Translations under genes and position numbers: made by a program
Shown: positions 2,753 to 26,818 of the stretch, piece by piece
How the letters are laid out: every line of letters begins with the position of its first letter
How positions within the stretch are numbered: the first letter of the stretch is position 1
The notes under the pieces: generated by a model
Database searches by the model: none
What the model saw: only the letters and a program-made list of their open reading frames with translations
Told to the model about the DNA's origin: nothing
Assembly: GCF_947241125.1 (NCBI RefSeq)
Contig: NZ_OX365700.1
Coordinates: forward strand, 4,250,461 to 4,314,460
Length of the DNA stretch: 64,000 bases
Reading direction: 5' to 3'
Origin: Nitrospira tepida
GTDB lineage: Bacteria; Nitrospirota; Nitrospiria; Nitrospirales; Nitrospiraceae

Positions 2753-3754
2753 TCACGGCATCACGAGGACGCCGGAGCCGTTGATCGTGCCAGCCTTGAG
2801 GGATTGGAGCGCCCGGTTGGCTTCGTCGAGTCGAAAGCTGGTGGTGCGGGGCCGGATAGGAATCTCGGCCGCGACGCGGAGAAAATCCACCCCGTCCTGC
2901 TTGGTATTGGCCGTGACGCTGCGAATGACCCGCTCCCCGAACACCTCCCTGTCGTAATCGAGCGAAGGGATCGCGCTCATATGAATCCCGGCGAGGGCGA
3001 GCGTGCCCCCCTGCTCCAACGCGCGCAAGGCCGGCGGCACCAGTTCGCCCGCCGGCGCAAAGATGATCGAAGCGTGGAGTTTCTTGGGCGGCATGGCCAC
3101 CGCCTCCCCTGCCCATCTCGCCCCCATCTCACGAGCCATCGCCTGGTGCTCCGCCTTGAGCGAACAGACATAGACTTCGCAGCCCCAATGCCGGGCCACT
3201 TGAATGGCCAGGTGCGCCGCGGCCCCGAATCCATAGAGGCCAAGCCGCTGTCCCGGCTGGATGCCGCTCAAGCGCAGCGCGCGGAACCCGATGATCCCCG
3301 CGCAGAGGAGCGGCGCGGCCTCCTCGTCGGCAAAGGTCGCAGGGATCGGATAGGCGAAGGAGGCCGGCACGACAGCCGCCGTCGCAAACCCTCCGTCTTC
3401 ATGGTAGCCCGTGAACCGGGCGGAGGGGCACAGGTTCTCGCGGCCCGTCCGACAGAAATCACAAGTCCCGCAGGTGCGCCTGAGCCAGGCGATTCCAACA
3501 CGATCGCCCGAACGGAACGACCGCACGTTGGTTCCGACCGCCTCCACCGACCCGACGATCTGGTGCCCGGGGATCACGGGGGATTTTTGGGGAGGCAACT
3601 CTGCCTCGATGACATGCAGATCCGTTCGGCAAATGCCGCAGACCGAGACTCGGATCAGGATCTCATCGGGACCCGGCGCGGGCGCGGGAACCTCCTCGAA
3701 GATCAACGGCGAGGACCGGATATCCGCCGGCCTGTGCAACACCATGGCCTGCAT
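2753..3754 (-). CDS. Zinc-dependent alcohol dehydrogenase family protein
   Basis: 333 residues, normal for the medium-chain dehydrogenase/reductase family. It has the catalytic zinc site C39 in [10 protein letters not shown] and the GH of VIPGHQIVG (about 61-69), the structural-zinc cluster [15 protein letters not shown] (about 94-108), and a dinucleotide fold with [14 protein letters not shown] (about 175-188). It should oxidise an alcohol or reduce an aldehyde with NAD(P). Close relatives are the AdhP/AdhA group often labelled 'zinc-binding alcohol dehydrogenase family'. The substrate cannot be read from the sequence. It lies downstream of the YceI gene (107 bp) and upstream of the DUF4412-like gene (87 bp), all on the minus strand. 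Confidence 0.88.
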
Positions 3755-4476: not shown

Positions 4477-4520
4477 CGCTTCACCTCATCCTGATTGTGA
4501 ACAGATAGTCAGACGGTCGG

Positions 4521-5618
4521 TCACTTCGTCGCCGGCTTCGGCGCCACCGGCTTGGACTCTTTTGATTCGACCGTAGTGGTCTCTGCGGCCTTCTGGTCCC
4601 CCTTTGGGTCAGGCACGGGCGCTGGTCCAGCCGTGACCGAAGAGGTCGCTCCCGCCAGCGCAGGCTGGTTCTGTTGCACCGCCGCGGCCGGCCTGGCTCC
4701 GGTCCGCATGCGGACATGGACATCGACATAGTCCTCATTGGTGCCACCCGGAATCGGGGGGAAGGGATGGGCCTGTACGATCGCCAACAGGCCGGCCTCA
4801 TCGACCTCGCGGACACCCGAACTCCGTTCGAGCTGGATGAGCTGCGCGTTCCCGTTGGCATGCATGCGAAACCGCACCCGCACCGTTTCCCGCGCGCCGT
4901 TGACCCCCCTCGCAAACCGCATCCGGTGGCTCCAGCTCCGGCTGATCAGGCGCGTGATTTCCTTCCAGTACAGCCGTTCTTGCTTGGTCTCCGGCAATGG
5001 CCTGAGGTCTTCCTCCGCAATCAGCACATTGGCCACCGGCGGCACATCCGGTTGCACTTCGTCGAGCGGCATCTCGTTGGCAGGCGACTCCAGGGCTTCG
5101 TCCTCGCTCTCTTTCTCCTGCGGCTTGGCCGGCTCGTGCACCATGGTCAGATAGACGGTGCGGGCAAGGATTCGCTTGAGCGTATTGTCTCGCACGCGCG
5201 ACACCGTCACCCGCAGGCGGACGGCCTTCGGCCTCACGGACGTATAACCCACCGGCTTCGGTTGGATCGTGATCGCCGCTTTCCACTCGCCCGGGGTTTC
5301 CGTCTGCTCCATCGGCACCATGGCCTTGTCGAACGCGAGGCTCTCGACCGCGGTGACCAGCGAGGCATTGCTCTTCGGCCCGTTGGCGAGCGTCACGGTA
5401 AGCGGCAGTTCCTCCCCGAACTGCACGACGCCGGTCTCCAGCGCATTCTCCAGGATCACGTTCAGAGAGGGCTTGGGAGCGGGAGGTTTGACGGCGGGGC
5501 TCTGGGTTTCAGCCGCGTCGCTTTTGAGCGGGGCCACCGATGAACAGAGCAGCAACGCGGGCAGGAGCAGGACGCGCGTCAGAACCGGACACCGTTGTTG
5601 ATCCGCCGCAGGCGACAT
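4521..5618 (-). CDS. TonB/TolA C-terminal-domain exported protein
   Basis: 365 residues. A signal peptide or anchor (RVLLLPALLLCSSVAPL, about 15-31) is followed by a Pro-rich linker, a beta-rich middle region with charged stretches, and a TonB-C-like module at about 215-305: ERLYWKEITRLISRSWSH, then ARETVRVRFRMHANGN, ERSSGVREVDEAGL and HPFPPIPGG. That module usually contacts outer-membrane receptors or the Tol system. The tail is again Pro/Glu/Lys-rich. It is not a classical TonB, because the domain is followed by 60 further residues and no ExbBD genes are adjacent. It could be a TolA-type spacer protein. It is transcribed divergently from tdh, and a TTGCAT-N17-TAGGAT promoter ends 6 nt before the ATG. 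Confidence 0.75.
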   Translation of the reverse strand: MSPAADQQRCPVLTRVLLLPALLLCSSVAPLKSDAAETQSPAVKPPAPKPSLNVILENALETGVVQFGEELPLTVTLANGPKSNASLVTAVESLAFDKAMVPMEQTETPGEWKAAITIQPKPVGYTSVRPKAVRLRVTVSRVRDNTLKRILARTVYLTMVHEPAKPQEKESEDEALESPANEMPLDEVQPDVPPVANVLIAEEDLRPLPETKQERLYWKEITRLISRSWSHRMRFARGVNGARETVRVRFRMHANGNAQLIQLERSSGVREVDEAGLLAIVQAHPFPPIPGGTNEDYVDVHVRMRTGARPAAAVQQNQPALAGATSSVTAGPAPVPDPKGDQKAAETTTVESKESKPVAPKPATK

Positions 5619-5624
5619 GGCTGC

Positions 5625-5653
5625 ATCCTACCGTTCCCGAAAAAGTGATGCAA
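5625..5653 (-). promoter_or_regulatory. Promoter of the TonB-C gene, leaderless candidate
   Basis: On the minus strand TTGCAT (5648-5653) is separated by 17 bp from TAGGAT (5625-5630), which is followed by GCAGCC and the ATG at 5618. Spacing is ideal for sigma-70. Initiation 7 nt downstream would coincide with the start codon. Confidence 0.5.
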
Positions 5654-5679
5654 CCGCCGCGATCGCAAACGGCCTTTTC

Positions 5680-5708
5680 TTCGCATCCGGTCCAGCTTGT
5701 GGGATAAT
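5680..5708 (+). promoter_or_regulatory. Promoter of tdh, leaderless candidate
   Basis: TTCGCA (5680-5685), a 17-bp spacer and GATAAT (5703-5708) are followed by ACGGCC and the ATG at 5715. The -10 box is 6 nt from the start codon and there is no Shine-Dalgarno sequence, so the transcript would be leaderless. Confidence 0.5.
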
Positions 5709-5714
5709 ACGGCC

Positions 5715-6749
5715 ATGCATGCCGTACGCAAGCTGGCTCCCGGCCCCGGGTTGATCTTCACCGAACAGCCGGACCCGCGTCCCGGACCTCACGACGTGGT
5801 CGTGCGCGTGAAGGCCACGTCGATCTGCGGGACCGACGCACATATCTACAATTGGGACCCCTGGGCAGAAAGCCGCATCCATCTGCCCCTCACCGTCGGC
5901 CATGAACTATGCGGAGAGGTCGTGGAAGTCGGATCGGCCGTGACCTTGGTGAGCCTCGGCGAGTACGTTGCCGCCGAATCCCACCTTACCTGCGGACGCT
6001 GCTTTCAATGCCGGACCGGGCAGGCGCACGTCTGCCGGAGCTATCGCATTCTCGGCGTCGATCTGGACGGGTCCTACGCTGAATATGTGGCCCTGCCGGA
6101 AGCCGTGCTGTGGAAAACGGCGCCCGACATTCCCCCGCACCTCGCCTGCATTCAGGAGCCGCTCGGCAACGCCGTGGACGCGGCCTTGGCGGAAGACGTG
6201 ACGGGCCAGACCCTCTTGATCACCGGCTGCGGCCCCACCGGCCTGTTCGCCGCCGCCGTCGCTCGGACCGCGGGGGCCGCGACGATCATCGCGTCGGACG
6301 TGAGCGACTACCGACTGGGCCTGGCCAAGCAGCTCGGCGTCGATCACACCTTGAATGTCAAGGCCGATACGCCCGAGGCCATCGCGTCGGCCATCCGAGA
6401 CATCACGGAGGGCGAAGGGGTGGATGCGTCGCTGGAGATGTCGGGCGACCCGACCGCGCTGCATCAGGCCTTCCAGGCGGTCAAGAACGGAGGGCGCGTG
6501 ACGCTGTTCGGTATTCCCAAAGGTCCGATCTGCTTCGACCTGCCGAACGAGATCATCTTCAAAGGCATTCGCGTGTACGGGGTGACCGGACGGCGTCTGT
6601 TCGAGACCTGGTATCGCATTGCCGGGTTGTTCAAGGCAGGGCTCGATGTTCGCCCCGTCGTGACCCATACGTTTCCGCTGGCGGAGTTTGAGCAGGGTTT
6701 TGCGCTCCTCAATTCGGGCCAGTGCGGGAAGGTGGTGCTATTTCCGTGA
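5715..6749 (+). CDS. tdh: L-threonine 3-dehydrogenase
   Basis: 344 residues. The zinc-dependent enzyme oxidises L-threonine with NAD to 2-amino-3-ketobutyrate, which the next gene (kbl) cleaves. Evidence is the Tdh signature ICGTDAHIYNWDPWA (catalytic Cys about 38), VGHELCGEVVEVG, the structural-zinc cluster CGRCFQCRTGQAHVC, and the NAD fold TGCGPTGLFAAAVARTAGA. Length matches the family (about 340). The C-terminus GVTGRRLFETWYRIAGL is also Tdh-like. The ATG at 5715 gives the normal N-terminus MHAVRKL. A TTG 18 bp upstream is possible but would lie within the -10 region. It forms a two-gene unit with kbl, although 102 bp with an inverted repeat separate them. Confidence 0.93.
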   Translation: MHAVRKLAPGPGLIFTEQPDPRPGPHDVVVRVKATSICGTDAHIYNWDPWAESRIHLPLTVGHELCGEVVEVGSAVTLVSLGEYVAAESHLTCGRCFQCRTGQAHVCRSYRILGVDLDGSYAEYVALPEAVLWKTAPDIPPHLACIQEPLGNAVDAALAEDVTGQTLLITGCGPTGLFAAAVARTAGAATIIASDVSDYRLGLAKQLGVDHTLNVKADTPEAIASAIRDITEGEGVDASLEMSGDPTALHQAFQAVKNGGRVTLFGIPKGPICFDLPNEIIFKGIRVYGVTGRRLFETWYRIAGLFKAGLDVRPVVTHTFPLAEFEQGFALLNSGQCGKVVLFP

Positions 6750-6755
6750 AACGAG

Positions 6756-6828
6756 GTGCTGGGTGCTCAATGCTGAGTGCTCAGCACCATCAAGGAGTGC
6801 TAACCATTCCTTCCTCAGCACCCAGCAC
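6756..6828. repeat. Inverted repeat between tdh and kbl (AGCAC-type intergenic repeat)
   Basis: GTGCTGGGTGCT (6756-6767) is the exact reverse complement of AGCACCCAGCAC (6817-6828). Between them a smaller hairpin TGCTGA/TCAGCA (6771-6786, loop GTGC) can form. The stretch consists largely of GTGCT/AGCAC words. It could form a hairpin in the tdh-kbl message or be a dispersed intergenic repeat. Confidence 0.75.
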
Positions 6829-6851
6829 TCGGTACTAAGGACTGAGGCGAC

Positions 6852-8054
6852 ATGGCCTACACGTCGTTGAAGAAAGCGGTCGAACGTCAACTGGCCGAGA
6901 TCCGCAGCGCCGGCCTGTACAAGACCGAGCGGCAACTGATCGGTCCGCAGGCGGCCGAGATCCAAGTGGCCCACGGCCAAGGCCAACGAGCCGCGCTGAA
7001 CTTCTGCGCCAACAACTATCTCGGGCTGGCCAACCATCCCGAGATCCGCAAGGCCGCGAAGGACGGGTTGGATCAACACGGCTACGGCATGGCCTCCGTG
7101 CGGTTCATCTGCGGGACGCAGGATCTGCATAAGCGCCTTGAACGGGCGCTGACCACTTTCCTCGGGACCGGGGACACGATCCTCTACAGTTCCTGTTTCG
7201 ATGCGAACGGCGGCTTGTTCGAAACGCTCTTAGGCGAAGAGGACGCGGTCATCAGCGACGCGCTCAACCATGCAAGCCTGATCGACGGGATTCGCCTCTG
7301 CAAAGCCAAACGGTTTCGTTATGCCCACGCGGATATGGGCGAGTTGGAAACGGCGCTGAAGGATGCCGCGTCCTGCCGCCTCCGGCTGATCGCCACCGAC
7401 GGGGTCTTTTCCATGGACGGCGATCTGGCGCCGCTCGATCGCGTCGCGGACCTGGCCGACCGGTACGATGCCGCCGTGGTCGTGGATGACAGCCATGCCA
7501 CCGGGGTGCTGGGGCGCCAAGGGCGGGGCACGCCCGATCACTTCGGGGTCGCGGACCGCGTTGATTTGATCACCAGCACCCTCGGCAAAGCGTTGGGCGG
7601 CGCGGCCGGCGGGTTCACAACCGGACGGGCGGAAATCATCGAGCTGCTTCGCCAACGATCCCGTCCCTATCTTTTCTCCAATTCCCTTCCGCCGGTGATT
7701 GCCGCAGCGGCGCTCCAGGCCGTGAAGCTGGTGGCGCAGGGGGATACGCTTCGAGCCGCCCTTCAGGCGAACAGCCTGTTTTTCCGCACGGAAATGACTC
7801 GACTCGGGTTTCGCCTCCTGCCCGGCACCCACCCGATTGTGCCCATCATGCTGGGCGACGCGGCGTTGGCGACGAAAATGGCGGACCGGCTCCTGCAGGA
7901 AGGAATCTATGTGGTGGGGTTCAGCTATCCCGTGGTCCCGAAAGGCCAAGCCCGCATTCGCGTGCAACTGTCCGCTGCCCATACAAGAGAACAACTGGAA
8001 CGGGCGGTGCACGCCTTTGCCAAGGTCGGGCGAGAACTCGGCGTGATCGCCTGA
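6852..8054 (+). CDS. kbl: Glycine C-acetyltransferase (2-amino-3-ketobutyrate CoA ligase)
   Basis: 400 residues, a pyridoxal-phosphate enzyme of the alpha-oxoamine synthase family. It converts 2-amino-3-ketobutyrate plus CoA to glycine and acetyl-CoA. Hallmarks are [16 protein letters not shown] (about 54-69), [19 protein letters not shown], the cofactor aspartate and histidine in [13 protein letters not shown], and the Schiff-base lysine in [16 protein letters not shown] (about 238-253). The tail [18 protein letters not shown] is also typical. AONS/BioF is the main alternative, but length, these motifs and the tdh neighbour favour Kbl. A GACTGAGGCGAC stretch precedes the ATG as a weak Shine-Dalgarno. 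Confidence 0.95.
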
Positions 8055-9947: not shown

Positions 9948-9976
9948 ATTGTACACTGTCTACCTAAGCATTTGAA
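9948..9976 (-). promoter_or_regulatory. Promoter of the PilZ-like gene
   Basis: On the minus strand TTCAAA (9971-9976), a 17-bp spacer and TG-extended TACAAT (9948-9953) are followed by 11 nt and the ATG at 9936. The expected 5' untranslated region is only a few bases. Confidence 0.5.
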
Positions 9977-26148: not shown

Positions 26149-26157
26149 AGTGTAGCA
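26149..26157 (-). promoter_or_regulatory. Extended -10 element, 5 nt before ATG 26143
   Basis: On the minus strand TGC-TACACT-TGGTC-ATG. The 11-mer GCTACACTTGG is identical to that before the upstream gene at 26803. No good -35 box is present, as is common with TGn-extended promoters. Confidence 0.45.
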
Positions 26158-26809: not shown

Positions 26810-26818
26810 AGTGTAGCA
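26810..26818 (-). promoter_or_regulatory. Extended -10 element, 6 nt before ATG 26803
   Basis: On the minus strand TGC-TACACT-TGGCCC-ATG. It has the same 11-mer GCTACACTTGG as the next gene downstream. Leaderless initiation is expected if the box is used. Confidence 0.45.

Follow-up and report, generated by a model that had tools for sequence, protein, structure and literature searches.

Divergent promoters predicted to give leaderless or near-leaderless tdh and TonB-C transcripts in a Nitrospira-family chromosome

The locus described here raises the question of how two divergent genes are expressed when the candidate -10 box of each ends just before its start codon. The window, meaning the whole 64,000-nucleotide stretch of DNA analyzed, corresponds to positions 4250461-4314460 of a Nitrospira-family chromosome, the host genome being a single contig of 4.73 Mb. 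Within it, a 96-bp intergenic region (5619-5714) lies between tdh and a divergent gene for a TonB C-terminal domain protein (TonB-C), as seen in Table 1. Relatives of tdh were found in Nitrospira and other Nitrospirota, with the highest identity (78%) in N. moscoviensis, and they align from residue 1 of the protein. The divergent TonB-C neighbor is retained next to tdh in many Nitrospira loci. On the other side of tdh, the stretch before kbl (6750-6850) is made up of repeats of the GCTGAGTGCTCAGCACC / CTCAGCACCCAGCACTC kind.

Table 1. Genes and candidate promoter elements in the window
Feature	Position	Strand	Details
TonB-C gene	4521..5618	-	TonB C-terminal domain protein, ATG 5618; predicted leaderless; Pfam TonB_2, E 8.7e-9
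TonB-C candidate -10	5630-5625	-	TAGGAT, 6 nt to ATG 5618
TonB-C -35	5653-5648	-	TTGCAT, 17-bp spacer
tdh -35	5680..5685	+	TTCGCA, 17-bp spacer; consensus scan
tdh -10	5703..5708	+	GATAAT, 6 nt to ATG 5715; TG before it at 5700-5701
tdh	5715..6749	+	Threonine dehydrogenase-like zinc alcohol dehydrogenase; predicted leaderless; Pfam ADH_N/ADH_zinc_N
kbl-like aminotransferase	6852-8054		Downstream of tdh; Pfam-checked
PilZ gene, candidate short-leader promoter	9948..9953	-	TGTACAAT + 11 nt + ATG 9936; TACAAT
Unnamed gene near 26 kb, candidate leaderless promoter	26149..26154	-	TGCTACACT + 5 nt + ATG 26143; TACACT
SNase-domain gene, candidate leaderless promoter	26810..26815	-	TGCTACACT + 6 nt + ATG 26803; TACACT

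An earlier, sequence-only reading had described a -35 box, a 17-bp spacer and a -10 box exactly 6 nt from the ATG at both genes, and this arrangement can be read directly in the sequence. The tdh promoter has 9 of 12 consensus matches, which is the threshold of our consensus scan, and it was the sole promoter-like site in 4500-7500 (shuffle mean 0.4). The TonB-C promoter has 7 of 12 matches, counted by eye, and was therefore below the threshold and unlisted by the scan. The earlier description of both starts as lacking a Shine-Dalgarno (SD) sequence was correct for tdh, where none precedes the ATG in the window, but does not strictly apply to TonB-C. There, positions -11 to -8, within TAGGAT, read AGGA, and it is at this distance that SD words are most frequent in the host genome.

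Our preferred explanation is that the intergenic region carries two back-to-back promoters of the housekeeping-sigma type. Since the -10 boxes end 6 nt before the ATGs, RNA polymerase would start at, or within a few nucleotides of, each A. The products would be leaderless or near-leaderless mRNAs whose translation would need no SD pairing, the 5'-terminal AUG being recognized directly, as in known leaderless mRNAs. Under this explanation, in which we infer the transcription start, the sigma factor and the mode of translation, tdh would be strictly leaderless in most Nitrospira-family lineages and TonB-C would have a leader of 0 to about 4 nt. The pair would belong to a small conserved leaderless set in a family whose starts are otherwise SD-led. 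We consider it quite likely that the two promoters give such mRNAs as part of such a set, and the comparison with relatives gives good support to leaderless or near-leaderless expression of both genes.

The sequence-only reading went further and suggested that leaderless transcripts are common in this genome, which in this form our counts do not support. Genes were called in 864 kb with a simple codon-usage caller that is blind to upstream signals, which gave 718 genes and 430 transcription-unit heads. TANNNT was present at -13/-12 in 5 of the 430 heads, compared to 5.0 expected from the -70 to -20 background, in a profile that relies on imperfect start calls and might overlook a class of about 1%. 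The motif that had been put forward for counting, TGnTAnnnT with the hexamer at -12, occurred before 1 of the 430. With the identical pipeline, plasmid DNA of Deinococcus deserti had TANNNT at -13/-12 in 15/115 versus 1.3, a twelve-fold peak. Therefore, leaderless genes are not common here in the Deinococcus sense. SD words were found before 156 of the 430 heads, compared to 73 in a shifted window, and most genes of the host seem to use ordinary leaders. A distance histogram independent of gene calls also showed no TANNNT peak in the host genome; the same restricted distance count gave 7-9 sites at distances 5-7 in D. deserti, versus 2.45. Another genome, G042, had 16 TANNNT sites at distance 7 versus 4.7 in the gene-call-free count. 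This excess was given no weight because 10 of the 16 precede uncalled ORFs.

The additional elements on which the broader claim had leaned were of uneven quality. The SNase-domain gene and the unnamed gene near 26 kb do have closely spaced boxes, at 6 and 5 nt, but the PilZ box is 11 nt from its ATG and would leave a leader of ~5 nt if transcription started 7 nt after the box. At the HicB-like gene, TAGAAT overlaps one candidate ATG and is 13 nt before a GTG, and the potassium-channel gene (TVGYGD) has just a weak TACCCT, located 9 nt upstream of one of its candidate ATGs. The SNase arrangement was seen in 2 of 29 homologues among the matches listed and is not conserved there. The arrangement of the tdh/TonB-C pair is beyond chance because it is conserved in relatives.

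For tdh, 73 sequences were compared: the window and 72 relatives, out of 80 tdh loci. This set is without L011, L072 and L074, which have incomplete starts, and L075-L079, which are not Nitrospirota. A strong -10 hexamer was found at -13 to -11 in 51 of the 73 (48 at -12, two at -13, one at -11), and 22 of the 73 have no such near box. Twelve sequences have a -10 at -18 or further upstream. An SD-like word precedes 1 of the 51 near-box starts compared to 9 of the 12 far-box starts (Fisher p = 9e-8, relatedness ignored). The start codon is ATG in 50/51 of the near class and 9/12 of the far class. TGGTATA[CG]AAT at -17 to -7 stands out strongly in 37 non-redundant upstream regions, while the sequence further upstream diverges; a weak TTG at -35 to -33 from the ATG gives a 17-bp spacer. 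In some relatives the box at -12 is TAGAAT, an in-frame TAG stop, so an earlier 5' start is impossible. What the sequences show directly is thus the box geometry, the fact that it is conserved and the presence of an SD once the tdh box is placed further upstream. A pyrimidine at -1 was dropped as a start-site signature, since it occurs in the near and far classes alike and does not discriminate between them.

In a tree with L075, L077 and L079 as outgroups, and the partial L073 absent, 21 of the 22 sequences without a near box sit in one clade of 23 (support 95/97). The remaining one, L064, was placed among near-box sequences. Because those without the near box are nearly all in one clade, a switch between leaderless and leadered starts would be rare. 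Taken together, these data suggest that tdh is very probably leaderless. Many boxes of the tdh loci (L002-L081) and of an unnamed family (L215; loci L299-L327) also carry TG at -17/-16, as in TGGTATACAAT, TGCGCTACAAT and TGTGCGATAAT, and this extended -10 form seems typical of the family.

Another possible explanation is that the boxes are chance matches near starts and that promoters further upstream give both genes ordinary leaders. The background frequency of TANNNT at -12 in the single genome is in favor of this, but the fixed offset is conserved while the flanks diverge, and it is precisely the starts with a close box that lack an SD. Further evidence against it comes from control families at the tdh locus, with a near -10 in 0 of 145 sequences (kbl 0/73, MlaA-like 0/26, YceI 0/46). 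We find this explanation very improbable. The control names are presumed from the protein sequences, the kbl-like aminotransferase alone being Pfam-checked; in YceI, an SD was present in 42 of 46. The ADH gene at 2753-3754 (15/76) was discarded as a control, since both it and tdh encode zinc alcohol dehydrogenases and its query probably matches tdh too.

At the TonB-C start, TTGC, a 17- or 18-bp spacer, TAGGAT, 6 to 10 nt and an in-frame ATG were found in 45 of 47 loci, our own included. The distance from TAGGAT to the ATG in the 45 is 6 nt in 7 loci, 7 in 21, 8 in 6, 9 in 10 and 10 in 1. N. moscoviensis has TAGGAT 7 nt from the TonB-C ATG, and its tdh has TAGAAT at a distance of 5 nt. Position 7 after the box is a purine in 15 of the 16 loci with an ATG at 8 or 9 nt. 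In the 21 loci with a distance of 7 nt, this position is a pyrimidine in 17, and the A of the ATG occupies position 8. This pattern is what a start at the first purine 7-8 nt past the box predicts, and the predicted TonB-C leaders are 0-3 nt, perhaps 4. Within TAGGAT, both Gs and the T-A...T are invariant in 22 non-redundant sequences, which is partly circular since these were found by requiring TAGGAT. In the two exceptions, L026 and L031, the TTGC...TAGGAT box is kept beside tdh and the TonB-C reading frame starts about 200 bp away. The roughly 200 bp between frame and box in L031 contain an inverted-repeat-like stretch.

An SD role or a dual role for this box is possible because AGGA is at SD distance. 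In the first case, tdh would be leaderless and TonB-C would be SD-led, with transcription from a more distant upstream promoter and AGGA as the ribosome-binding site. The location of AGGA at the genome's SD-word peak fits this idea, as does the box-ATG spacing of 6-10 nt, a variation that an SD tolerates. In addition, TAGGAT shows no general enrichment as a -10 hexamer: upstream of the 430 heads it is present 6 times in sense and 8 times in antisense. Against an SD-led start, the Ts flanking the AGGA are invariant in the 22 sequences (with the circularity noted above), TTGC is at the 17- or 18-bp spacer in 45/45, the purine at position 7 follows the spacing and the box persists in L026 and L031 despite their displaced ORF start. 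We regard an SD-led TonB-C as unlikely. In the second case, TAGGAT would be both the -10 of a near-leaderless promoter and an SD for longer read-through transcripts. This would account for GG and T-A...T being invariant together, as a plain -10 does not need unvarying Gs, but an upstream promoter is not in evidence and the invariance was partly selected by searching for TAGGAT. We give a dual box a low probability. Our preferred reading is that TonB-C is probably near-leaderless, as its spacer and purine pattern suggest.

TAGGAT also occurs before the minus-strand gene 2057-2665, where GGTAGGATGC is close upstream, the box is 17 nt from the ATG and a clear GGGGAGGAAGC SD follows, an arrangement that resembles a TAGGAT -10 followed by a leader of the ordinary kind. 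An alternative-sigma regulon with GTTGC...TAGGAT was considered and rejected: there were 7 sites in the whole genome compared to 3 for the reversed motif, and the sense and antisense counts of TAGGAT are alike.

A stricter motif, TANA[AC]T-N6-ATG, has 56 occurrences genome-wide compared to 34 for its reverse; N14 spacing gave 39 sites and its reverse 39. The N6 excess is about 19 sites (Poisson p about 0.006 versus 39). At 10 of 55 N6 sites, the ATG is the start of a called gene, is intergenic and has no SD, versus 1 of 39 N14 sites (Fisher p = 0.02); 55 of the 56 N6 sites were analyzed, L208 (ORF of 53 aa) being outside the position filter. Matches to the -35 at the whole-genome N6 sites did not clearly differ between gene-frame and other sites. 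One sequence, TAGACTTCAGGCATG, was found three times identically, at host contig positions 505087, 514250 and 3963177, and is probably a repeated element.

Five families were drawn from the N6 list (HAD, Slp, one unnamed, DSP phosphatase and DUF4112), on which the SNase gene of the window also stands. Conservation was tested in Nitrospira-family relatives with at most 30 loci at a time, own included, out of sets of 55, 58, 57, 31 and 58 matching genomes. In four of the six families, SNase counted, 15-25 of the 29 listed relatives retain a -10 at a distance of 5-9 nt. Among the matches listed, the near -10 is present in 25/29 for the HAD hydrolase (21 by count at the aligned start), 25/29 for the Slp lipoprotein, 15/29 for the family without a Pfam match and 25/29 for the DSP phosphatase, 22 of these at 9 nt and with a well-kept TTGAC -35. 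DUF4112 keeps it in 3 of 28 among the matches listed, and in 3 of the 5 closest. The gene at 2057-2665 scored 3/27 in the same test, and TonB-C scored 0/40 in the automatic version since TAGGAT is outside its hexamer list. The DSP phosphatases (L217 family; L419-L447) have a near-perfect TTGACS -35, a TATACT -10 and an ATG mostly fixed 9 nt downstream, and their predicted leader is 3 nt rather than none.

The conserved near-box families and the controls indicate that SD-led and leaderless genes would coexist stably. The leaderless genes appear to be a conserved minority, of the order of 1% when extrapolated from the strict motif. This set (tdh, TonB-C, HAD, Slp, DSP phosphatase and others) might even be a translational regulon that is favored when SD-dependent initiation is impaired, with TAGGAT as a dual -10/SD, an idea that we consider quite unlikely.

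Leaderless mRNAs in Mycobacterium are reportedly abundant and have been mapped experimentally. There, as proposed here, the mRNA begins at the start codon, although ours are predicted and rare. In Deinococcus-Thermus, TANNNT is located 6-7 bp upstream of the ORF, with TACACT frequent, beside genes of the ribosome-binding-site type in one genome (PMC12340547), and all three features are shared with our host. In contrast, about one third of genes are of this kind in D. radiodurans (PMC12340547), compared to the extrapolated order of 1% here, and our TonB-C and DSP phosphatase families, unlike Deinococcus-Thermus, have a well-kept -35. A survey of bacteria described leaderless "TA-led" genes, which lack an SD and have a TANNNT signal resembling a -10 about 12 bp ahead of the start codon, and also orthologues that change from one type of start, SD-led or TA-led, to the other (Zheng et al. 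2011, PMC3160421). Our tdh family resembles this in all three respects. That survey classes genes per genome, and Nitrospira does not appear in its main text, while here a conserved minority within one family is followed gene by gene. We found no transcription-start study of Nitrospira or Nitrospirota in the open-access full-text literature, although this says little about whether one exists. Leaderless starts marked by a TANNNT some 12 bp ahead of them are already established, and the tdh/TonB-C pair provides new predicted examples.

If transcript mapping agrees, these genes would be an evolutionarily tracked leaderless set in a phylum of nitrite oxidizers. The tdh family would serve as a natural experiment, with the promoter element at the ATG in most lineages, whereas in others it is at least 18 nt upstream and usually accompanied by an SD. 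The annotation of start codons in Nitrospira-family genomes would also improve, if this is true.
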